Below are positions 8,343 through 24,373 of a DNA stretch of 24,373 nt, piece after piece; positions within the stretch are counted from its first letter, which is position 1; every line of letters begins with the position of its first letter. The notes under the pieces are model-generated. The model was not told the DNA's origin. It worked only from the letters and a program-made list of their open reading frames with translations, and did no database searches. The DNA lies in the IMG/VR virus record IMGVR_UViG_3300005525_000101, positions 1-24,373 of that record. One strand, 5' to 3'. A program made the position numbers and the translations under genes. The DNA comes from a virus.

Positions 8343-10535
8343 TTAAATTAGACAAGCGCCACCGGCACAACTAATTTCCTCGATCCCGACAGTATTATCT
8401 TCAGTTTCCAATAGTTGTGTATAATCAACCTTCTTGAAACTATTAAACAAATCACAATAAATCTTCCAGTTATAAACATCCTTCATACAGTATGTTAATC
8501 TTCTGGTGTCTCCATTAAAGTATTTACCAGCAAAGTTTTTCATTTTGGTTACAAACATTAATTTAGATTCATGATGGTCTTTATTAGCTTGATTTAATAC
8601 TACATAATCACAAGCGGCCCAAAGATTATTATTGAATGCGTTTAGTGCAAGCTCTATTAATCCAGAACACCATAGCGCAGCATCTCCGTACTCTTTAACT
8701 ATTTCTCTACTAGTATAAACAGTAGTAAATGGGGCTTGTGGATAGTCTTTATCTCCGCTTTGAGGAATTAGACTAATACCAGCAAAATACTTTCTATTGT
8801 CATAAATATACTTTGTAACATCATCCCATTCATCTGGTTTTACTGTTACAGTATTACTAACATTGTGACATAAATATTTTTGAGTACATAAATGAGTATT
8901 TTTACCACTTTGCACCCAATGCTTTTGAGTATCCTTAACTACAGATAACATCTCTATAGCTGGTAATTGATTTTTAAGTTTAGCCCCATCTGGAACCTCT
9001 ATGGGAAATTTTATAACCTCATCGGTATTATTGGCAGACCACGATGATTTTTCGCATGACTGCGGATTTATTTTCTTAAAGTGCTGGTAGGGCGCCTCTA
9101 AAATATTGGCCTGTACATGGCGTATATATCGTTTAGCATGGTGTGGGTGGATACCGGATGAAGTACCTAGCATAGAACTTGCGGTTCCTTCTGGCTTCAA
9201 GCAAGTCACCCGTGCTGCTTGGTTTATGCCAATTTTTTTAGCTATTTCTTTATTAGTTTCTACTGCAACTTTAGCACCAGTTTTGAGTACCTTTTCTGAC
9301 AATATCAAATCATGTTTCTCCATAATACCTGTCATTGATACTCCCAATAATGATTCTTTACAAAAAATCTTTTCTGATATTTTACCAAGATAATCTAAAT
9401 TTGTAAACCCGGCTTGTAAAGTACCTATTATAGCAGCGGCTTTGCATCTTTCATAAAAATCATTTTCATCTTCTAATGAAGAACAGTTGATAGTGCTCAA
9501 ATTACATCCTTGCCATCCACTAGCGCCACTATCAATATCAACAGGATATAGGTTAACCTCGACACACGGATTGAATACCATTTCTGTTGATTCTGCCCAA
9601 ATAAATCCTGGCTCACCAAACTCTTTAACGCTTTCCATTAAAATTTGGAACTCTTCAAATGTTGTTTGTTCTTTTAATAATAATGCAGAATTATTACTTC
9701 GGGCTCTTTGAGGATTCTCTATAAACCAGTTACCCGTTTTTGCCTTAGCCATCTCTTCATCTTCTGGACTAAATAATGCTAAACTAGCAGATCTTCTAAC
9801 ACCGCCACTTAATACAGCATCACTACTGTGCATAACAATATCATAAGCATCAATTGGTCTTAATTTTTTCTGACCATTTCTAATACAACGATCTAGTAGT
9901 GCTCTTATTTTTTCTAGGCCGTTTGCTAGTGGTTCATAACCGGGGGCTTTACCAACCCCACTAGCCAGCGACGATCCTTTTGCTCTAATATTTGAATAAT
10001 CAAAAACCACATGAGTATTCTTATATTGCTTAAATTCTTCTACAGGCTTGCTAGAATAGCTGCTTAATAAGACACCTAGAGCATCAGCCCATCCTTCGAT
10101 ACTGTCATCGATAACATATTTTGTGGCTGTTTCTGGTTCTGGATTGTGTTCTAGCGAAGGTAGTTTTGATACATGGTGCTTTTGTACACTAAATCCTGTG
10201 CCACTACCACACAACAATAGCCAAAAACATTCTTGGAAAAATCTTAAACGATCACAATAACTTGCTGTACAATTAAAAATTTTACTATTTCTTTTTAGTA
10301 TTGGATCTCCACCAAACTGTAATGCTCTTTGAGATCCTAATACTTTCTTTTTATACATCATATCGTATGCCCAATTGATTTGGTCTGTTATACCAAAATC
10401 AGCATACTTTGTATGCATCATGTTTTTAACTCTTTCGACCGCTTCTTTCCAAGTTTCCCTGCGATTTTTATCTTCTAGCCAACGAGCATATTTGCTAACG
10501 AAAGTATAATTTTGCAGTTCTTGAAGAGCGGACAT
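8343..10535 (-). CDS. nrdJ: Adenosylcobalamin-dependent (class II) ribonucleotide reductase
   Basis: This 730-residue monomeric reductase makes deoxyribonucleotides from ribonucleotides using vitamin B12 radical chemistry, with no small subunit or oxygen. Catalytic residues are visible: the first redox cysteine C89 (FNCTAS), the radical cysteine and glutamate in NPCVE (C324, E326), and the second redox cysteine C344 in GCNLSTIN. The C-terminal swinging pair sits in SCAGGACLI (C723, C728), with the same five-residue spacing as Lactobacillus RTPR. The length also fits that monomeric ribonucleoside-triphosphate reductase. AGGAG is five bases before the ATG and overlaps the stop of the 46-residue gene upstream, implying coupling. 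Activity depends on host or scavenged cobalamin. Confidence 0.93.
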   Translation of the reverse strand: MSALQELQNYTFVSKYARWLEDKNRRETWKEAVERVKNMMHTKYADFGITDQINWAYDMMYKKKVLGSQRALQFGGDPILKRNSKIFNCTASYCDRLRFFQECFWLLLCGSGTGFSVQKHHVSKLPSLEHNPEPETATKYVIDDSIEGWADALGVLLSSYSSKPVEEFKQYKNTHVVFDYSNIRAKGSSLASGVGKAPGYEPLANGLEKIRALLDRCIRNGQKKLRPIDAYDIVMHSSDAVLSGGVRRSASLALFSPEDEEMAKAKTGNWFIENPQRARSNNSALLLKEQTTFEEFQILMESVKEFGEPGFIWAESTEMVFNPCVEVNLYPVDIDSGASGWQGCNLSTINCSSLEDENDFYERCKAAAIIGTLQAGFTNLDYLGKISEKIFCKESLLGVSMTGIMEKHDLILSEKVLKTGAKVAVETNKEIAKKIGINQAARVTCLKPEGTASSMLGTSSGIHPHHAKRYIRHVQANILEAPYQHFKKINPQSCEKSSWSANNTDEVIKFPIEVPDGAKLKNQLPAIEMLSVVKDTQKHWVQSGKNTHLCTQKYLCHNVSNTVTVKPDEWDDVTKYIYDNRKYFAGISLIPQSGDKDYPQAPFTTVYTSREIVKEYGDAALWCSGLIELALNAFNNNLWAACDYVVLNQANKDHHESKLMFVTKMKNFAGKYFNGDTRRLTYCMKDVYNWKIYCDLFNSFKKVDYTQLLETEDNTVGIEEISCAGGACLI

Positions 10536-10545: not shown

Positions 10546-10684
10546 ATTTATCTGTATCTATTAAAGTAAGAAGGCCAAATAAGACTAGGCCATGAAAAGA
10601 ATAGTTTATCATTTCGGGATTTTGTGTGAACCATCGTTGATAAAAATAGATTCCTATGCTAATATAAAATGCTATCTTGTACAT
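10544..10684 (-). CDS. Hidden 46-residue hydrophobic peptide between dCMP deaminase and nrdJ
   Basis: Reading the gap shows an ORF beginning MYKIAFYISIGIYFYQRW and ending LLTLIDTDK. Its ATG forms TAATG with the deaminase stop, and its TAG overlaps the nrdJ ribosome-binding site, so it fills the space with no slack. Two hydrophobic stretches (about residues 3-15 and 29-42) separated by a polar turn suggest a small helical-hairpin membrane protein. No family is recognised. A membrane protein between two soluble nucleotide enzymes is odd: it may recruit them to the membrane, act on the envelope early, or be a non-functional filler. There is no strong ribosome-binding site of its own. Confidence 0.6.
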   Translation of the reverse strand: MYKIAFYISIGIYFYQRWFTQNPEMINYSFHGLVLFGLLTLIDTDK

Positions 10685-11154
10685 TATAATACACCACACA
10701 ATTGTTTCAGCCACGAAAGGTCTGGATCGATATATAAAATTTTGATTCCGCTCATTGAGACAAAAGTATCAAATCTGTCTTTTGCTTTTTGATCGAATAG
10801 ATGGGTTCCATGATCTTTTGTCATAACAACCGTAGAAACTCCTTCTTGCCATAAAGCCATTATACAGTCGTTGCAGCTTTGACCAGTTACATATGCTATG
10901 CCATTATCCGGCCTAACTATACAATTAGAAAGAGCATTTCTTTCGGCATGAATCATCCAAGGATATTTTTCTGGTCTAGTTTTGGGTAGTTTTGAATCAT
11001 CTAATCCTCTTGGAAATCCATTGTATCCTACTCCTAGAATACGATTATGAGAATCTGTGATCACACAACCATGCTGAGTTTGCTCATCATGACTACGTTG
11101 AGAAACAACTTTTGCTAAACCTAAAAAATAATCTGTCCACGATGGTCTGTTCAT
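10684..11154 (-). CDS. dCMP deaminase (zinc-dependent cytidine/deoxycytidylate deaminase family)
   Basis: This enzyme converts dCMP to dUMP, feeding thymidylate synthesis. The zinc and catalytic residues are present: HAE at 69-71 in MIHAERNAL, and C94 and C97 in QSCNDCIM. The usual proline before the first cysteine of PCxxC is a serine. The VGYNGFPRG motif (residues 42-50) is typical of phage and bacterial dCMP deaminases. The frame can be extended to a TTG at 11172, but I chose the ATG at 11154 (156 residues) because a near-consensus promoter ends just before it. No ribosome-binding site is present, consistent with a leaderless message. Confidence 0.88.
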   Translation of the reverse strand: MNRPSWTDYFLGLAKVVSQRSHDEQTQHGCVITDSHNRILGVGYNGFPRGLDDSKLPKTRPEKYPWMIHAERNALSNCIVRPDNGIAYVTGQSCNDCIMALWQEGVSTVVMTKDHGTHLFDQKAKDRFDTFVSMSGIKILYIDPDLSWLKQLCGVL

Positions 11155-11188
11155 ACAACTATTATATGCCAACAGTTCACAGAGTCAA
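11154..11188 (-). promoter_or_regulatory. Near-consensus sigma-70 promoter, probably giving a leaderless dCMP deaminase mRNA
   Basis: On the minus strand TTGACT (11183..11188) and TATAAT (11161..11166) are 16 bases apart. Six bases (11155..11160) separate TATAAT from the ATG, so the predicted start point is the A of that ATG. The -10 box is perfect and the -35 box differs from TTGACA in one base. The site lies between the end of the DUF1552 gene and the nucleotide-metabolism operon. Host RNA polymerase could read it early in infection. Confidence 0.65.
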
Positions 11189-11195
11189 GACACAA

Positions 11196-12431
11196 TTATA
11201 GTATTTCTGTTAATGGACCAGACTGTTCGGCTGCTGCCATTTCTAAATCAAGCTCTCCAAATTTTTCTCTGTTATCTCCAACAGCATGTAGCAGCGATAG
11301 ATAGAGATTGCGAATGGTTCTGTTGCCGGTACTACCATAAGCTGGATATTGTAAAAATCTACCATCGGTTTTTAGTCTGCCGCCTAAATTACCTATCAAT
11401 ACAATAGGCCATTCGGCACAAAAACCATGATGACCCTCACCAGAGTCGCTCATCCAAACTATAAGACTATTATCAAGCATTGTACCATCGCCCTCTTTAA
11501 TAGAATCGAGTCTATTAGCAATATCTAATACTCTTTCAGCATGATATTTACGAATTGGTACAGATAAATTATCTGGTCCATTCATATGACCAATAGCATG
11601 ACCATCAATATCAATACCTAAAGATTTCCATGTATGATATTGTTGAATTCCACCAGCAGCATCTAAAGTAACTATATTTGTTAGTCCACTAATAAGAGCT
11701 GACACTAAAATATCACACTGAGATTCAAATCTATCGATATTTAATTCACTATGAAATTTATCTGTTATTGGTTGGTTTCGTCTAATCTTATCCTGAATTT
11801 TAATAGTTTCATTTTGTCTATATAAAATCTCATCAAATGATTGTAAATAATTATCTAATTTAATCTTATCCATTGATGGTAAACTATTGCGTACTCTATT
11901 TATATCTGTTTTAATATAGTCTAGTAGTTTATTTCTAGCATTATATATTTTACCCGCATCGCCCTCTGCTACACTACCAAATAATGTTTGAAAAGCAACA
12001 TTTGGTTGACAAATCATTGATAGCGGTTTTTTATATCCAATAGCTGATACACTTTGAACAAAAATTGCAGATGATTGTGGAGGTATAGCTAAACCTAATA
12101 CTGGGATTATACTTTTAACAGATTCAGCTAGTGCATGATCTATAGTTTGACCAGCAACATCTTTTCTCCAATGAAAACATCCTAATCCGCCATATCCTTT
12201 TCCATGGTCTCCGCCACCAGAGACTTTATGTGATAGTTTTTGTATTATACACATTTTTTCCTTTAATGGATTAAGTGGCGCTATAGCATCTGGTAATTCT
12301 AATTCATTCAAAGATTTATCAATTATATTAGATTCACTAGTAGTTTTTATTTCTTTTGGCTGTATATGACGGGGATATAGTCCATTGGATTCAATAAAAA
12401 ATATTATACGAGGGGGGAGATTTTTCTCCAT
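11196..12431 (-). CDS. DUF1552 protein, main body (frameshifted from its signal peptide)
   Basis: The 411 residues match the planctomycete DUF1552 (HXXSHH) family along their whole length. PPRIIFFIESNGLYPRH is the usual opening strand, LKEKMCIIQKLSH follows, and the C-terminal part has YHAERVLDIANRLDSIKEGDG, LDNSLIVWMSDSGEGHHG and PIVLIGNLGG. The biochemical function of the family is unknown. Members are exported by the Tat route and usually occur beside DUF1501. Read as a separate gene it would start at an ATG with no ribosome-binding site and no signal peptide. The missing N terminus is present upstream in another frame (12391..12546), joined at a run of six C. The intact product would be about 450 residues. 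Confidence 0.8.
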   Translation of the reverse strand: MEKNLPPRIIFFIESNGLYPRHIQPKEIKTTSESNIIDKSLNELELPDAIAPLNPLKEKMCIIQKLSHKVSGGGDHGKGYGGLGCFHWRKDVAGQTIDHALAESVKSIIPVLGLAIPPQSSAIFVQSVSAIGYKKPLSMICQPNVAFQTLFGSVAEGDAGKIYNARNKLLDYIKTDINRVRNSLPSMDKIKLDNYLQSFDEILYRQNETIKIQDKIRRNQPITDKFHSELNIDRFESQCDILVSALISGLTNIVTLDAAGGIQQYHTWKSLGIDIDGHAIGHMNGPDNLSVPIRKYHAERVLDIANRLDSIKEGDGTMLDNSLIVWMSDSGEGHHGFCAEWPIVLIGNLGGRLKTDGRFLQYPAYGSTGNRTIRNLYLSLLHAVGDNREKFGELDLEMAAAEQSGPLTEIL

Positions 12432-12546
12432 TAGCTTGAGATGCTAAGGAATCTAAAAAAGGCTGTAGAATAATAGCTCCTGCACCAAGAGTTAATCCTT
12501 TTATATAATTTCTTCTATTTGTTATTGTTGGTAGAATAATACTCAT
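12391..12546 (-). CDS. Tat-like signal segment of the DUF1552 gene, in a different frame
   Basis: The ATG at 12546, two bases after the DUF1501 stop, opens a 51-codon frame. It begins MSIILPTITNRRNYIKG and continues with a hydrophobic stretch ending near FLDSLASQ. The twin arginines (11-12) followed by N-Y-I-K fit a Tat signal of DUF1552 proteins, and the next residues (GEKSPP) run into the family's conserved PPRIIFF in the next frame. Removing one C from the run at 12412..12417 would fuse the two frames. As given, the frame stops at 12391..12393. An AAGGA lies about 12 bases before the start. This is part of one gene, not an independent protein. Confidence 0.7.
   Translation of the reverse strand: MSIILPTITNRRNYIKGLTLGAGAIILQPFLDSLASQANGEKSPPSYNIFY
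12412..12417 (-). other. Run of six C where the DUF1552 reading frame shifts
   Basis: The two DUF1552 frames meet here (GGGGGG on the plus strand). One base fewer restores the full gene. The cause may be a sequencing or assembly error, a real mutation, phase variation of the run, or +1 slippage of a proline tRNA on CCC codons. Confidence 0.6.
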
Positions 12547-12548
12547 GA

Positions 12549-13934
12549 TTATATTAATTCCTTTATAAGATTACCTTCTGGTAAAAGTGGTATTGGTCGA
12601 CCAGTAAAATCATGGATAATACTTTTTGGATTAATATTCATATGATAAAATATTGTAGTCCATAAATCTTCTGGTAATATCATTCTATCTTCAACAAAAG
12701 CTCCCTTGTCATCAGACTTGCCAATAACCTGACCCATTTTAAAGCCACCACCAGAAACAAGAATTGAATATGCTTTTGACCAATGATCTCTGCCCGGCCA
12801 AATTTTTCCACCTTTACCAGATTTATATTCTAATTTTGGAGTGTGTCCAAATTCACCCATTACTACAATCATAACATCCTTATCTAATCCTCTATCATAA
12901 ACATCTTCTATTAGAGCAGCTATGGCTTCGTCATATAATGGCGCTCTAAATTTCATATCATCAAATAAATGAGTATTAACAGCATGACAATCCCAGTTAT
13001 AATAAGTATTATCTGTCGGCGGTTTAATAGATACACTAGGATTACTCATAGTAACAATAACACTACCGCATCCAGCTTCGATTAATCGTCTTGCCATTAA
13101 AGCTCTTTGTCCCCAGGCGTGTTGACCATACTTTAATCTTATATTTTCTTTTTCTAGAGAAACATCAAACGCAGCTTTCACAGAGGAACTAAATAATAAA
13201 TTTTGTGCCTGATCATGAAACTTATCCATAGTAGACATCGATTTTGTTAAATCTATTGAGCGATCAACTTTATCTATAGATTTGAGTAAATTCATTCTAT
13301 TATCTAGTCTTTCAGAAGTTAAACCCATGCTTAGGGATAATGAATTAACTTTAAAATTATGTTTTGATGGATCCCCATCAACTTCAAATGGGGTATACTG
13401 TGGTCCTAGATATGCTGCGCCCAAAGCTATGCTATCGGGTTTGGTTGCTCCACTATCTCCTAAAATAATACTATTAGGTATAGATGATGTATTATTTTTT
13501 TCTGTAAATCTATTTATCATTGAACAGGTTGACGGGTGGTCATTAATAGTTCCTGTTGGTGTTGCTGGTCTTCTAGCCATCATAACTCTTTTAGAGCCGC
13601 CACCATGATCGGTAAAAGAATGACTCATTGAGCGAATAATAGTAAACTTGTCTGCAATCTTGGATTGCTTTGGAAATAGTTCACTTATTTGTATACCATT
13701 AATATTAGTATTAATTGGTTTTAATAGACCTCTATATTCGTCTGGCGCTTGCGGTTTAAGATCATACGTTTCTAACTGAGAAACACCACCGGGTAACCAT
13801 ATAAAAATCAAAGACTTTCTAGGTTTGGGTTCTACTGCTTGTAGTTGGATCATATCCGATAATGTCAATCCAGCAAATCCTAAAGAACCAATTTCTAGAA
13901 AAGATCTTCTATCAATAGGCCCGCAGCATCTCAT
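12549..13934 (-). CDS. DUF1501 protein with Tat signal
   Basis: This 461-residue protein is an intact DUF1501 member, related to the sulfatase/alkaline-phosphatase fold. The N terminus CCGPIDRRSFLEIGSLGFAG is a Tat signal (RR at 9-10). Family landmarks follow: WLPGGVSQLETYDLKP, a DHGGGSKRVMMARR segment, NWDCHAVNTHLFDDM, VMGEFGHTPKL and GRDHWSKAYSILVSGGGF. Its enzymatic role is not established. Such proteins are numerous in Planctomycetes and are thought to act outside the cytoplasm. The start overlaps the GlsB-like stop as ATGA and the stop lies two bases before the DUF1552 signal segment. A phage copy is unusual. Base composition matches its neighbours, so the acquisition does not look recent. 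Confidence 0.9.
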   Translation of the reverse strand: MRCCGPIDRRSFLEIGSLGFAGLTLSDMIQLQAVEPKPRKSLIFIWLPGGVSQLETYDLKPQAPDEYRGLLKPINTNINGIQISELFPKQSKIADKFTIIRSMSHSFTDHGGGSKRVMMARRPATPTGTINDHPSTCSMINRFTEKNNTSSIPNSIILGDSGATKPDSIALGAAYLGPQYTPFEVDGDPSKHNFKVNSLSLSMGLTSERLDNRMNLLKSIDKVDRSIDLTKSMSTMDKFHDQAQNLLFSSSVKAAFDVSLEKENIRLKYGQHAWGQRALMARRLIEAGCGSVIVTMSNPSVSIKPPTDNTYYNWDCHAVNTHLFDDMKFRAPLYDEAIAALIEDVYDRGLDKDVMIVVMGEFGHTPKLEYKSGKGGKIWPGRDHWSKAYSILVSGGGFKMGQVIGKSDDKGAFVEDRMILPEDLWTTIFYHMNINPKSIIHDFTGRPIPLLPEGNLIKELI

Positions 13935-14179
13935 TTTAACACTAATTTATTATATACTATTAGTGATACTATTGATCCAGCAATACCCATAAAAATACCA
14001 GCAGGAGATACTGAACTATATGACCCTAATAGGTATAGTATGGCTCCACCAGTATACGAACCAATTACGCCTAAAGCAACAGTTTTCACAAAGCCAAAAT
14101 TTTCTTCACCAGGTACTATGCTCTTGGCTATGGAACCCACAAATAAACCATATACACACCATACTATAATATCAAACAT
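13931..14179 (-). CDS. GlsB/YeaQ/YmgE-type small membrane protein
   Basis: This is an 82-residue, very hydrophobic protein. It has a glycine-rich pattern (GLFVGSIAKSIVPGEENFG, then ALGVIGSYTGGAILY, then GIFMGIAGSIVSLIV) typical of the transglycosylase-associated GlsB/YeaQ family with three membrane helices. Its function is unknown in bacteria, where it is linked to stress responses. The frame opens at 14185, but GGAG lies seven bases before the ATG at 14179, which also gives the normal family N terminus. It overlaps the previous gene and runs by ATGA into DUF1501, suggesting a role at the inner membrane together with the exported pair. Confidence 0.8.
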   Translation of the reverse strand: MFDIIVWCVYGLFVGSIAKSIVPGEENFGFVKTVALGVIGSYTGGAILYLLGSYSSVSPAGIFMGIAGSIVSLIVYNKLVLK

Positions 14180-14564
14180 GGGCATTCTCCACTAGGGTTA
14201 TTACTTCTTCTTGAGTTACATTTTCTCCACTATCTAATATAGCATTTAATAGCTGGAAACTATATTTTTGGTAGTCTTCTGGACTTAGTTCACGACGAAG
14301 AACTTTTTTGATTCTCATTTTAGTAAACCATCCCCGACGACTACTATACGACTTAATATTTTCACCATAAAGACCGTACTTCTGTTCTGCTGAACAATCT
14401 GAGCTTAATTTATTTTTATTACATTCTTGTAATATTCTTACAAGAGTTAATACTATACTAATAATCATTAATATGGCAATAACACTACCAAACTTTTGAT
14501 CTTCCGAAATATTAGTTTTATGAAGTATTTTTGTGGCTATATTTTTTAATTCAATATTATTCAT
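14172..14564 (-). CDS. Single-span membrane protein of unknown function
   Basis: This 130-residue protein has one clear membrane segment at residues 27-44 (SVIAILMIISIVLTLVRI). A basic region follows (SSRRGWFTKMRIKKVLRREL, about 73-92), then a helical tail. The N-terminal 25 residues and the C-terminal half are soluble. No family recognised. It is joined by ATGA to the secreted CxxCxGxG gene upstream and overlaps the GlsB-like gene. Its size and topology would permit an inner-membrane partner role in lysis or export, but there is no direct evidence. Confidence 0.7.
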   Translation of the reverse strand: MNNIELKNIATKILHKTNISEDQKFGSVIAILMIISIVLTLVRILQECNKNKLSSDCSAEQKYGLYGENIKSYSSRRGWFTKMRIKKVLRRELSPEDYQKYSFQLLNAILDSGENVTQEEVITLVENAHV

Positions 14565-16022: not shown

Positions 16023-16562
16023 TTATGCCTTTATTTTATTGCTTTTTTGTAAATTGTCTTTTGCCCACAGTGGTTGCAGATTTGAATAGTGACATAATTT
16101 TTCTAATTCTTCTTTATTTTTTGCTGATGATAATGGTATGATATGATCTATGTGCCAACCATATAATCCATAATTATCCCAACTCATATTTTTATCAAAT
16201 TTATTAGATATATATTGTTTAAGAAAATCTATTGAACAACCAAGCATATCTAATGTAGATTTAGATTTATTTTTTCCGTGTAGAGCTAAATTAATTCTGC
16301 GTCTAATATTTTCTGACATTCTATAACTTATATCTGTTTTAAGTCTTTCTTTTTTTCTTAGCCTGCTTTTTATTTTAATATCTGGTCTTCTGGAGTAATT
16401 TAGTGCTTTTTTTTGTAAAATTTCATAATTATGAGATTTATATTTTTGTTTTTTTTTCTGAGCACAAGATTTACATATGTATTCCAACCCATCATGTCTG
16501 GTCTTATCCTTATAAAAATTAGTATCTTCTTGAGATAACTTGCACTTATTACAGTTTTTCAT
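16023..16562 (-). CDS. Free-standing HNH endonuclease with N-terminal zinc knuckle
   Basis: This 179-residue protein starts with a CxxC zinc knuckle (C4, C7, C30, C33) and a long basic helix. It ends with the HNH core: WHIDHIIPLS (H137, D139, H140), N161 in YSNLQPLW and N170. This layout is typical of mobile phage HNH nucleases. I start it at 16562, which lies five bases after the previous TAA, rather than at 16616, where it would overlap that gene by 50 bases. It is inserted between membrane/lysis genes and is not related in position to an intron, so it looks like a homing invader. The neighbouring genes appear intact. Confidence 0.88.
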   Translation of the reverse strand: MKNCNKCKLSQEDTNFYKDKTRHDGLEYICKSCAQKKKQKYKSHNYEILQKKALNYSRRPDIKIKSRLRKKERLKTDISYRMSENIRRRINLALHGKNKSKSTLDMLGCSIDFLKQYISNKFDKNMSWDNYGLYGWHIDHIIPLSSAKNKEELEKLCHYSNLQPLWAKDNLQKSNKIKA

Positions 16563-16566
16563 TTTA

Positions 16567-17058
16567 TTATTGAGATCCCATATAGCATGCCCAAGCGAGA
16601 GCATTAAAACCTTCAACCGCTTTTTCTCTTAGGCTATCATCTAATAATACACTATCGTCACCTATAGCGGCTTTAATGAGATTAGTTCCGGCTTCTGCGA
16701 GATTCTCATACTTGCCTTTCATATCCAATTTAAGCATAATTCCGGCCAATCTGTTAGCTTGACGAATTTCTTCTGTATTTTTAATAATACAATCTTCACC
16801 ATCCAAACTAACTAGAGTAGCAAGATCCAAATATAAAGAGGCTAATCTTTTACCATCAACCTTTCTACTAGATGGTCCACTTTTTAGAGCTTTGGTAACA
16901 GATTCACACTCATCCAATAGTTCTTTATTAGATGGCTTAACAACATTTACAGAACCGACAGCATAATCAGTATTATCTAGCGTGGGTAAACTAGGTTTAA
17001 ATAATCCTACTGCGATTAGACACGCCGCAATTAACAATAGTAATGTTTTCGAGTTCAT
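16567..17058 (-). CDS. Anchored or secreted helical protein of unknown function
   Basis: This 163-residue protein has an N-terminal hydrophobic stretch (MNSKTLLLLIAACLIAVGLF) that is either a signal or a single anchor. An I-A-A-C motif at residues 10-13 could be a lipobox, but hydrophobic residues on both sides favour an anchor. The rest is helical, with LASLYLDLATLVSL and IRQANRLAGIMLKL near the middle. I chose the ATG at 17058, which overlaps the previous stop as ATGA with AAGGA seven bases upstream, over the frame start at 17076. Family unknown. It belongs to the run of membrane proteins around the holin. Confidence 0.7.
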   Translation of the reverse strand: MNSKTLLLLIAACLIAVGLFKPSLPTLDNTDYAVGSVNVVKPSNKELLDECESVTKALKSGPSSRKVDGKRLASLYLDLATLVSLDGEDCIIKNTEEIRQANRLAGIMLKLDMKGKYENLAEAGTNLIKAAIGDDSVLLDDSLREKAVEGFNALAWACYMGSQ

Positions 17059-24022: not shown

Positions 24023-24373
24023 TTAAATTAATCCTAAAATATTTGATCTATTAATACCGCGTGGTAATGGCCAAGTATCTCTTTGAGAATAAGATTCAGT
24101 TCCTGTTATTACATACGCCCCATCATTCTTATTATAACTAGCGTGTTTAAATGTGGCATTACCATAGATTGTTGTTCCATAATTACTAGAACTATGATTA
24201 AAAACACAATCTCCGGTTATAGTACCACCACCTATAGAATAACCATTAAAAACACAATCTCCGGTTATAATGCCATTATTGTAAGAATAATCATTAAAAA
24301 CACAATCTCCGGTTATAGTACCACCACCTATAGAATAACCATTAAAAACACAATCTCCGGTTATAATGCCATT
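24023..24373 (-). CDS. C-terminal part of a repeat protein, cut by the right edge
   Basis: The last 116 codons of a gene continue beyond the window. The visible part has 16-residue repeats of the form ITGDCVFNxYSxxxGx, with cysteine and phenylalanine at fixed positions. The tail (TESYSQRDTWPLPRGINR) is non-repetitive. Regular 16-residue steps with G-D-C-x-F resemble beta-solenoid or pentapeptide-like folds, where the same residue stacks on each turn. As the first of the adsorption genes it is likely a fibre or spike. The stop lies one base before the ATG of the next gene. Family unknown. Confidence 0.72.
   Translation of the reverse strand, partial: NGIITGDCVFNGYSIGGGTITGDCVFNDYSYNNGIITGDCVFNGYSIGGGTITGDCVFNHSSSNYGTTIYGNATFKHASYNKNDGAYVITGTESYSQRDTWPLPRGINRSNILGLI
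24201..24373 (-). repeat. 48-bp tandem repeats with a 96-bp superperiod
   Basis: The string CACAATCTCCGGTTAT on the plus strand begins at 24205, 24253, 24301 and 24349, exactly 48 bases apart. Units alternate between two versions, and the stretch from about 24201 is repeated identically 96 bases later to the edge. Each unit codes for 16 residues. Near-identity of the DNA implies recent duplication. Confidence 0.85.

Follow-up and report, generated by a model that had tools for sequence, protein, structure and literature searches.

An uncultured phage carries, at a site that is vacant or differently filled in its relatives, two adjacent genes of the bacterial families DUF1501 and DUF1552, and these were very probably captured separately from PVC-type bacteria and set side by side as cargo. 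Both lie in a stretch of viral DNA of 24,373 nucleotides (the window). Profile searches with PF07394 and PF07586 placed both families where the initial annotation had read them, with scores far above the curated cut-offs (Table 1). Membership of the DUF1552 ORF in its family rests on the PF07586 profile, not on an export signal. The HXXSHH motif, taken as a DUF1552 motif solely from the family name, reads HAIGHM at the corresponding position in the window copy and is also missing in 18 of 18 aligned cellular relatives (for example HAIGHG, HNLGH). DUF1552 and DUF1501 proved homologous by hhalign (probability 96.8); judged from this alignment, both families derive from a shared ancestor.

Table 1. 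Features of the pair, its borders and the upstream cassette (window positions; "by eye" marks features read by inspection; loci are those of the lineage).
Feature	Position	Strand	Evidence and remarks
Ribonucleotide reductase, lineage marker	8343..10535	-	phrog_367; 79 other relatives 85-89% identical (best 80 of 559)
dCMP deaminase	10684..11172	-	phrog_174, 4.4e-33; TTG start listed, ATG just past the promoter-like element likelier
Promoter-like TTGAC-N17-TATAAT before dCMP deaminase, downstream cargo border	11161..11188	-	same spot in much of the lineage
DUF1552 body, 411 aa	11196..12431	-	PF07586, 133.4 bits (cut-off 30), profile 1-305 of 307; hhalign to DUF1501
DUF1552 twin-arginine signal, own frame, 51 codons and stop	12391..12546	-	aligns with signals of cellular DUF1552 relatives
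A5-TCT-C6 tract where signal frame meets body frame (+1)	12412..12425	-	90.6 kb contain 9 runs of six G or C, this one included
DUF1501 gene, 461 aa	12549..13934	-	PF07394, 252.5 bits (cut-off 27), profile 1-390 of 390; twin-arginine N-terminus; predicted alkaline-phosphatase-superfamily fold
84-aa protein, last conserved-cassette gene, upstream cargo border	13931..14185	-	PF04226, 26.1 against 25.3 bits; 130/158 loci
Cassette gene, 130 aa	14172..14564	-	one membrane segment by eye; 127/158 loci; 65% identical in L318
Cassette gene, 122 aa	14561..14929	-	signal-like N-terminus and CxxCxGxG by eye; 118/158 loci; 51% in L318
Cassette gene, 307 aa	15097..16020	-	papain-like by eye (GDC ... H ... 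NSWG); 129/158 loci
HNH/endonuclease VII-like ORF, inserted in cassette	16023..16616	-	phrog_1035, 9.2e-22; 3/158 loci
Cassette gene, 169 aa	16567..17076	-	signal-like N-terminus by eye; 121/158 loci; 56% in L318
Cassette gene, 125 aa	17055..17432	-	118/158 loci; 72% in L318
Cassette gene, 128 aa	17429..17815	-	116/158 loci; L318 homologue weakly matches a holin profile (E 0.025)
Cassette gene, 111 aa	17766..18101	-	hydrophobic segments by eye; 111/158 loci; 66% in L318

The carrier is a genuine phage, as first proposed. A segment of 24,310 bp recurs, identical, in a longer contig of 90.6 kb that encodes a portal protein, DNA polymerase and glycosyltransferase, and the pair's neighbours include PhoH, ribonucleotide reductase (phrog_367), dCMP deaminase, tail fibre, DnaB, UvsX and primase. 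The pair has a GC content of 0.33-0.35, against 48-67% in the ten cellular loci measured around its nearest relatives, and codon usage ranks its two genes 37 and 45 of 49 (a low rank being odd). A misassembled host fragment would account for the cellular descent of both genes, but the identical sequence in a second, longer record, together with the phage-fitting composition and codon use, makes such a chimera very unlikely. The borders on both sides of the insertion are moreover conserved and the promoter-like element is still in place, and we set misassembly aside at a probability close to nil. Across the 49 DUF1501-bearing IMG/VR records tested (of 80), the terminase profile phrog_2 matched 31, with long frames (624-685 aa, E <1e-20) in 10 records and other matches of about 220-360 aa; the match in G001 is its PhoH gene, and since 11 of 14 control genomes matched too, the short matches mean little. 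A search for further phage genes covered three records of 45, 48 and 42 ORFs (for the first two, the 25 commonest families), and in G018 it returned no head or tail family.

Comparison across the lineage illustrated that the pair is optional cargo in an otherwise conserved backbone. Both cargo borders are present in 121 of 158 lineage loci, representing 81 distinct ones; the gap between them is below 200 bp in 56 of these 81 and larger in 25, including G001. Because the site is so often empty, the pair is dispensable for the cassette upstream. Lineage loci are often clipped by contig ends or are near-copies, and this clipping means that the absence of a cassette gene from a locus says little; one further locus scan covered the best 80 of 155. 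Other filled sites hold glycosyltransferases and papain-like or no-match proteins. Ten of their 82 ORFs, spread over nine of these 24 sites, were picked by hand: four matched glycosyltransferases, one GDP-mannose dehydratase, one a C39 peptidase below the cut-off, and four had no match. At eight of the 24 distinct sites a second papain-like protein and a long partner take the place of glycan genes, and several sites hold uncharacterised proteins. Promoter-like matches around the pair numbered 49, against 40.7 in shuffled sequence (s.d. 6.7), which is no excess.

The families are not unique to the window among viral contigs: IMG/VR yielded 153 stretches with DUF1501 relatives, of which the best 80 were kept as loci, and DUF1552 in three virus records. 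A further 22 viral records gave 26 weak DUF1552-profile places, none of which we count as a DUF1552 gene, 25 lying inside DUF1501 ORFs and the last (in G007) being a different 214-aa ORF at 13.5 bits. Trees of both genes, in which "phage" denotes an IMG/VR record, placed their descent in PVC-type bacteria (Planctomycetota/Verrucomicrobiota). The DUF1501 tree, a quick search on thinned rows with one support value, needs eight label changes, six of them forced by well supported branches, and in it the window copy and L018 form their own clade. In the DUF1552 tree the window copy (97/99), L318 (100/99) and G040 lie at different places among cellular genes. Together, the two trees require several separate captures. 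The best cellular DUF1501 copies are 46-50% identical (among the matches listed, Planctomycetota); the first cellular scan kept the best 80 of 558, and closer relatives came from a later search of Planctomycetota only. Window DUF1552 is 35-44% identical to eight relatives from one PVC subgroup, and one genome of 39 held up to 43 matches to it.

Gene neighbourhoods contradict the earlier view that the two families are commonly neighbours in hosts and that the phage preserves them as a unit. DUF1552 flanks only one of the best 80 of 558 cellular DUF1501 loci, 39 of which have a DUF1553-type partner nearby, and DUF1592 accompanies DUF1552 in 28 of 30 cellular loci. Around the nearest relatives, DUF1552 is found in none of eight DUF1501 loci opened; DUF1501 is found in none of six DUF1552 loci, all six with DUF1592 directly upstream. 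Partner families were identified throughout with profiles of our own, built from few relatives; these detected no DUF1553- or DUF1592-type cytochrome partner in any ORF of the 90.6 kb contig, so we do not file the pair as a planctomycete PSCyt/PSD module. The papain-like cassette protein, which had no Pfam or PHROG match, matched in 14 of 392 Planctomycetota at about 41% identity at best and in none of 387 Verrucomicrobiota, the latter search being one without a positive control. In the four loci opened, none of the remaining genes among the 15 tested from the window had a match, and these results are no more than a hint at the host.

Close inspection of the DUF1501 gene bore out the features ascribed to it: its start overlaps the stop of the preceding gene by four bases (ATGA, 13931-13934), and its N-terminus reads IDRRSFLEIG. 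Of the 150 viral DUF1501 ORFs with at least 390 aa (near-copies included), 147 have an RR near the start, no later than residue 45, and export of the protein is plausible. The conserved acid, histidine and arginine residues D58, H110, D315, H317, E361, R382 and H384 are retained in the window copy, L015 and L018; H110, D315, H317 and H384 are invariant. Position 364 is R in 82 of 87 sequences and H in these three. On its predicted model (pLDDT 90.9), DUF1501 is a protein of alkaline-phosphatase-superfamily fold. Via this model it aligns with ENPP6 (5egh; Z 19.7, rmsd 3.3, 256 aligned), 490 of 999 chains reach Z of at least 8, and Foldseek returned sulfatases and LtaS at E of about 1e-6. Sequence comparison gave no significant match between sulfatases and DUF1501, and a PDB sequence search nothing significant. 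The sulfatase GDHG motif aligns by sequence to GEFG in DUF1501 (E 0.15), which may mean an altered or absent catalytic activity.

The same features held only in part for DUF1552. Its ORF, from the ATG at 12431, has no signal; the twin-arginine signal proposed for it is encoded in another frame, which starts at an ATG (12546) two bases past the DUF1501 stop, a gap and not an overlap, and closes at 12391. An in-frame export signal, a common trait of relatives, is thus missing from window DUF1552, and its export is doubtful. The structure model (pLDDT 38.4) is too low for a reading of the fold. The gene is probably decaying or misread, a length change in C6 (or A5), in nature or in sequencing, having split signal from body: each part looks intact, they join at the only six-G/C run within the gene, and the L318 phage copy and cellular relatives have both in a single frame. 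Against this stand the identical tract in two records, though perhaps from one population, the near absence of frame splits in the other 24-kb genes (2 counts among 2,170 lineage ORFs with matches) and a body open over 411 codons. Programmed +1 frameshifting or slippage at CCC CCC T would make an exported form in small amounts, perhaps beside a cytoplasmic one, and would fit the preservation of both frames and the rarity of such runs (9 in 90.6 kb), one of which falls exactly at the junction; it is improbable, as L318 and the cellular relatives require no shift and only a single allele is at hand.

What might the pair do for the phage? In the explanation we prefer, which as a whole falls just short of an even chance, a phage has very probably captured DUF1501 and DUF1552 separately from PVC-type bacteria and carries them together between a conserved cassette of small proteins, membrane-bound or exported, on one side and the promoter-like element of nucleotide metabolism on the other. 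The host Tat system would export DUF1501 folded; once exported, it may use metal ions to hydrolyse phosphodiesters, phosphate esters or sulfate esters and so strip charged groups off host surface glycans or lipids. Such stripping could alter receptors, excluding rival phages, or loosen the envelope. DUF1552 would be a further member of the alkaline-phosphatase superfamily, its export impaired or rescued only at a low level by frameshifting. Host and role of the pair are inferred, and that the captured genes encode hydrolases directed at the host's envelope is a tentative reading of function, less likely than not. The earlier suggestion of an envelope role is favoured here because part of the same-site cargo is glycan-related; the papain-like/long-partner and no-match cargo, the out-of-frame DUF1552 signal, GEFG in place of GDHG and the absence of significant sequence matches to sulfatases speak against the preferred explanation.

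Two other functions were considered. In the manner of a classical auxiliary metabolic gene, an exported hydrolase might feed phage growth by cleaving phosphate or sulfate from esters in the periplasm or at the surface; the predicted fold of DUF1501 would suit such scavenging, and genes for PhoH, ribonucleotide reductase and dCMP deaminase are found a short way downstream. We consider it doubtful, since the pair stands where the membrane cassette ends, ahead of the promoter-like element that precedes the nucleotide genes, and the other cargo is partly glycan-related. Lysis help, in which exported proteins and the membrane cassette (with a possible holin and the papain-like protein) breach the PVC envelope, draws on the start/stop overlap of DUF1501 with the cassette, the membrane segments and weak holin match there, and the second papain-like protein added at eight of 24 other filled sites; it is quite unlikely, given a holin match at E 0.025 only and a site empty in most distinct loci. 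A broader reading concerns uncultured phages of PVC bacteria in general: they would repeatedly have taken up exported DUF1501-type hydrolases as a common tool against the PVC envelope or inner compartments, often with two to four DUF1501 copies close together, and window DUF1552 would be under C6 frame control, yielding exported and retained forms from one gene. This we regard as unlikely.

One source describes DUF1501 as lacking biochemical characterisation (PMC4452313), and the portions of the literature available to our search report no activity for DUF1501 or DUF1552 and, in phages, neither family beyond a weak CDD match in Pseudomonas phage ZC03 (PMC5418858). At the thresholds used, PHROG gave no match for four singly reported DUF1501 copies or for window DUF1552, and one match (E 0.009) for the L318 DUF1552; tblastn of both window proteins against 50,697 INPHARED phage records found none. 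DUF1501 and DUF1552 are large PVC families, and a phage copy makes their open question testable with one small gene. That phages have taken up such genes several times independently suggests that one of them, lacking the cytochrome partner, benefits the virus during infection. Recurring viral DUF1501 is a route to the function of common, uncharacterised bacterial proteins, and DUF1501/DUF1552 cargo may mark phages infecting PVC bacteria.

Set against known systems, the window DUF1501 shares the full profile, twin-arginine start and invariant residues with DUF1501 of Planctomycetota, but sits in a phage and without a DUF1553-type partner. Its DUF1552 neighbour likewise has the full DUF1552/HXXSHH profile (PF07586) and differs in its signal, placed in another frame, and in that no partner of DUF1592 type was detected on the phage contig. 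DUF1501 in a phage has a precedent in A0A6J5M742 (BFVD; uncultured Caudovirales phage), a database record already annotated as such, on which our literature search found no paper. NPP phosphodiesterases and sulfatases have the predicted fold in common with DUF1501, at 10-14% identity in structural alignment rows and with a different metal motif in sequence. Phage cargo (moron or auxiliary) genes are, like the pair, optional and host-derived within a conserved backbone; the pair differs from them in that a start/stop overlap joins it to the preceding operon.

The minus strand of the window reads, in transcription order, tail fibre, small membrane or exported proteins, papain-like protein, 84-aa protein, DUF1501 (PF07394), DUF1552 (PF07586), dCMP deaminase, ribonucleotide reductase, PhoH, UvsX, DnaB and primase, with unnamed ORFs interspersed. 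Pfam scores bear out both DUF assignments of the initial annotation. Neither window protein has a significant PHROG match, and tblastn of both against 50,697 INPHARED records gave no match. Window positions 1-24310 are contained, at 100% identity and in reverse orientation, in a longer contig of this phage, G001 (IMGVR_UViG_3300008116_000014, 90,658 bp), which beyond the window adds a portal protein and a glycosyltransferase as well as a DNA polymerase split between two ORFs. The polymerase ORFs (G001 26689-28074 and 30613-32220) match phrog_405 at 53-406 and 623-1065, with other ORFs intervening. The window's final bases copy G001 positions 34-114 in inverted orientation and look like an end artefact or assembly fold-back.

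Coordinates of features in the window
Feature	Position	Strand	Remark
TTGAC-N17-TATAAT element	11161-11188	-	intact, ahead of dCMP deaminase
DUF1552 gene	11196-12431	-	Pfam 133.4 bits, cut-off 30
DUF1501 gene	12549-13934	-	Pfam 252.5 bits, cut-off 27
Papain-like protein, 307 aa	15097-16020	-	155 relatives in IMG/VR; no match in Pfam, PHROG, NCBIfam or INPHARED
HNH/endonuclease VII-like ORF	16023-16616		within the cassette of small proteins
Inverted copy of G001 34-114	24293-24373

The phage belongs to a widespread uncultured lineage, defined by relatives of its ribonucleotide reductase (best 80 of 559 stretches) and papain-like protein (best 80 of 155); the 79 other reductase relatives among that best 80 are 85-89% identical to the window's. 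Searching with the window's genes, we found the 84-aa gene and dCMP deaminase together and in order in 121 of 158 loci. The cargo site between them is under 200 bp in 87 of the 121 and bigger in 34; with copies removed, 81 distinct loci comprise 56 empty and 25 filled sites. Among all 158, DUF1501 or DUF1552 occurs only in G001, fetched twice. The HNH/endonuclease VII-like ORF is present in three of the 158, two being the same contig, and is thus likely a mobile insert. Strict matches to TTGAC-N17-TATAAT lie upstream of dCMP deaminase in 62 of 133 regions (34 of 87 different ones), where the overall rate would predict 0.003 per region. Because this promoter-like element is intact in the window, the DUF1501/DUF1552 pair is placed as an insertion after the 84-aa gene and ahead of the element. 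The start/stop overlaps first described hold for one junction, where the DUF1501 start overlaps the 84-aa gene stop, but the ATG opening the DUF1552 signal (12546) lies two bases past the DUF1501 stop, out of frame.

Ten proteins chosen from the 82 ORFs of filled sites, and drawn from 9 of the 24 distinct filled sites outside G001, included glycosyltransferases (L136, L173, L370 and L360), a GDP-mannose dehydratase (L388) and a C39-peptidase-like match scoring under its cut-off (L329); four of the ten had no match. Three near-identical loci (L345, L346, L347) have an 8327-bp site with ORFs of 1688, 758 (threonine/proline-rich start) and 321 aa.

A DUF1501 model built from 87 sequences (pLDDT 90.9, pTM 0.90) predicts an alkaline-phosphatase-superfamily fold, with sulfatases and LtaS as Foldseek matches and ENPP6 as top VIA match (Z 19.7, rmsd 3.3, 256 aligned). 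H110, D315, H317 and H384 are invariant in 87/87 sequences and D58 and E361 in 85/87; all six are retained in the window and in two viral loci, L015 and L018. The metal site may differ from that of sulfatases, since their GDHG motif aligns, below significance, with GEFG. Profile comparison indicates that DUF1552 is homologous to DUF1501 (probability 96.8).

DUF1501 carries an export signal; the twin-arginine signal also claimed for DUF1552 lies in a different frame. The DUF1552 ORF starts MEKNLPPRIIFF, with export signal absent, and the frame opened by ATG 12546 (TNRRNYIKGLTLGAGAIILQPFLDSLASQ) closes at 12391. The two frames are offset by +1, the junction (12412-12425) is an A5-TCT-C6 stretch, and runs of six G or C number nine in 90.6 kb of G001. 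Eighteen aligned cellular relatives, one cut by a contig end, hold signal and body within a single protein and align first with the window's signal frame, then with its body frame. Programmed frameshifting across this junction is possible but less likely; a recent change or read error is likeliest, because DUF1552 is intact in L318 (another phage contig), cellular relatives are single-frame, and splits in other genes of the 24 kb are rare (2 counts in 2170 lineage ORFs with matches, DUF1501 and DUF1552 themselves lying outside this count).

The best cellular DUF1501 copies, from Planctomycetota (392 genomes searched, 245 with a match), are 46-50% identical to the window's; two alleles of other virus contigs are nearer, at 55-56% (best 80 of 153 IMG/VR stretches). 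One such contig, G006, encodes RIIA, RIIB, an RNA ligase and a clamp loader and also shows a long match to terminase, and across 17 kb surrounding L015 DUF1501 is the only protein match to G001. In a 138-row tree the window's DUF1501 pairs with L018 (support 100), this clade being joined to one of Planctomycetota (99), and the label "virus record" changes eight times, six forced by well supported branches. Counting fragments, the best 80 of 153 viral loci have one DUF1501 ORF in 29, two in 35, three in 6 and four in 10 (L042, L044-L047, L051, L052, L057, L061, L064), the four lying near one another; where the tree includes more than one copy from a contig, these sit in separate groups and are therefore not simple recent duplications. 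Among the carriers, G010 (227 kb) encodes a portal protein, a head maturation protease, and proteins for head closure and tail sheath stabilization, while in G018 the matches were to PhoH, exonucleases and an Rz-like spanin, with neither head nor tail families among them. Putative phage contigs from IMG/VR also carry both DUF1501 genes and a DUF1553-type gene (L068:4103-6490, its protein having PSCyt1, PSCyt2 and PSD1 domains; L020:7976-10069; L024:15522-17258). The window is one instance of recurrent DUF1501 use by viruses rather than a unique curiosity, with DUF1552 a doubtful partner.

Three virus records carry DUF1552: G001, that of L318, and G040. The window's copy groups with L285 (97/99) and that of L318 with L283 (100/99), each from a genome titled Verrucomicrobia; the two cassette-sharing phages therefore acquired DUF1552 separately. 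It lies ahead of the cassette in L318 and behind it in the window. The G040 copy (L254, bases 54-968, cut by the contig end) is placed only to the level of the second main group of DUF1552. G040 (122 kb, with a long terminase match) does hold both families, but its DUF1501 (L053) is ~79 kb away, so among the loci fetched the two adjoin only in the window's phage.

The sequences show DUF1501 to be well conserved and of hydrolase type, to bear an export signal, and to be optional cargo captured on several occasions; we infer its export, catalysis and substrate. In PMC4960237 DUF1501 gives its name to a module found preferentially in compartmentalised PVC species, a passage of PMC4452313 describes it as lacking biochemical characterisation, and part of PMC5122149 places DUF1501 with a twin-arginine motif next to bacterial chitin synthases. 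Once captured, it would remodel the host surface or envelope, a role we prefer tentatively because glycan-related genes form part of relatives' cargo at the same site. A purely glycan reading of the site is countered by the 8 of 24 other filled sites that carry a second papain-like relative with a long partner (L329, L331, L334, L335, L362, L363, L366, L376). Nutrient release ranks below surface remodelling, and help with lysis is improbable. Our overall explanation of the pair in this phage falls just short of an even chance. The donors are PVC bacteria and the host is likely one too; distant relatives of the papain-like protein, in 14/392 Planctomycetota versus 0/387 Verrucomicrobiota, are a weak pointer to Planctomycetota.

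The two families had been described as common neighbours in host genomes, preserved here as a unit. Cellular neighbourhoods do not bear this out: among the best 80 of at least 558 DUF1501 loci (flanks of at most 6 kb, many cut), DUF1552 appears in one (L194, opposite strand). The nearest DUF1501 copies opened have DUF1552 in 0/8 and DUF1553 in 2/8 loci; the nearest DUF1552 copies have DUF1592 immediately upstream in 6/6 and DUF1501 in 0/6; and 2 of 30 short DUF1552 loci include DUF1501. Whereas a search of G001 for DUF1553 and DUF1592 genes found neither partner, cellular DUF1501 and DUF1552 often stand near a DUF1553-type gene (39 of those 80 loci) or DUF1592 (28 of the 30), respectively.
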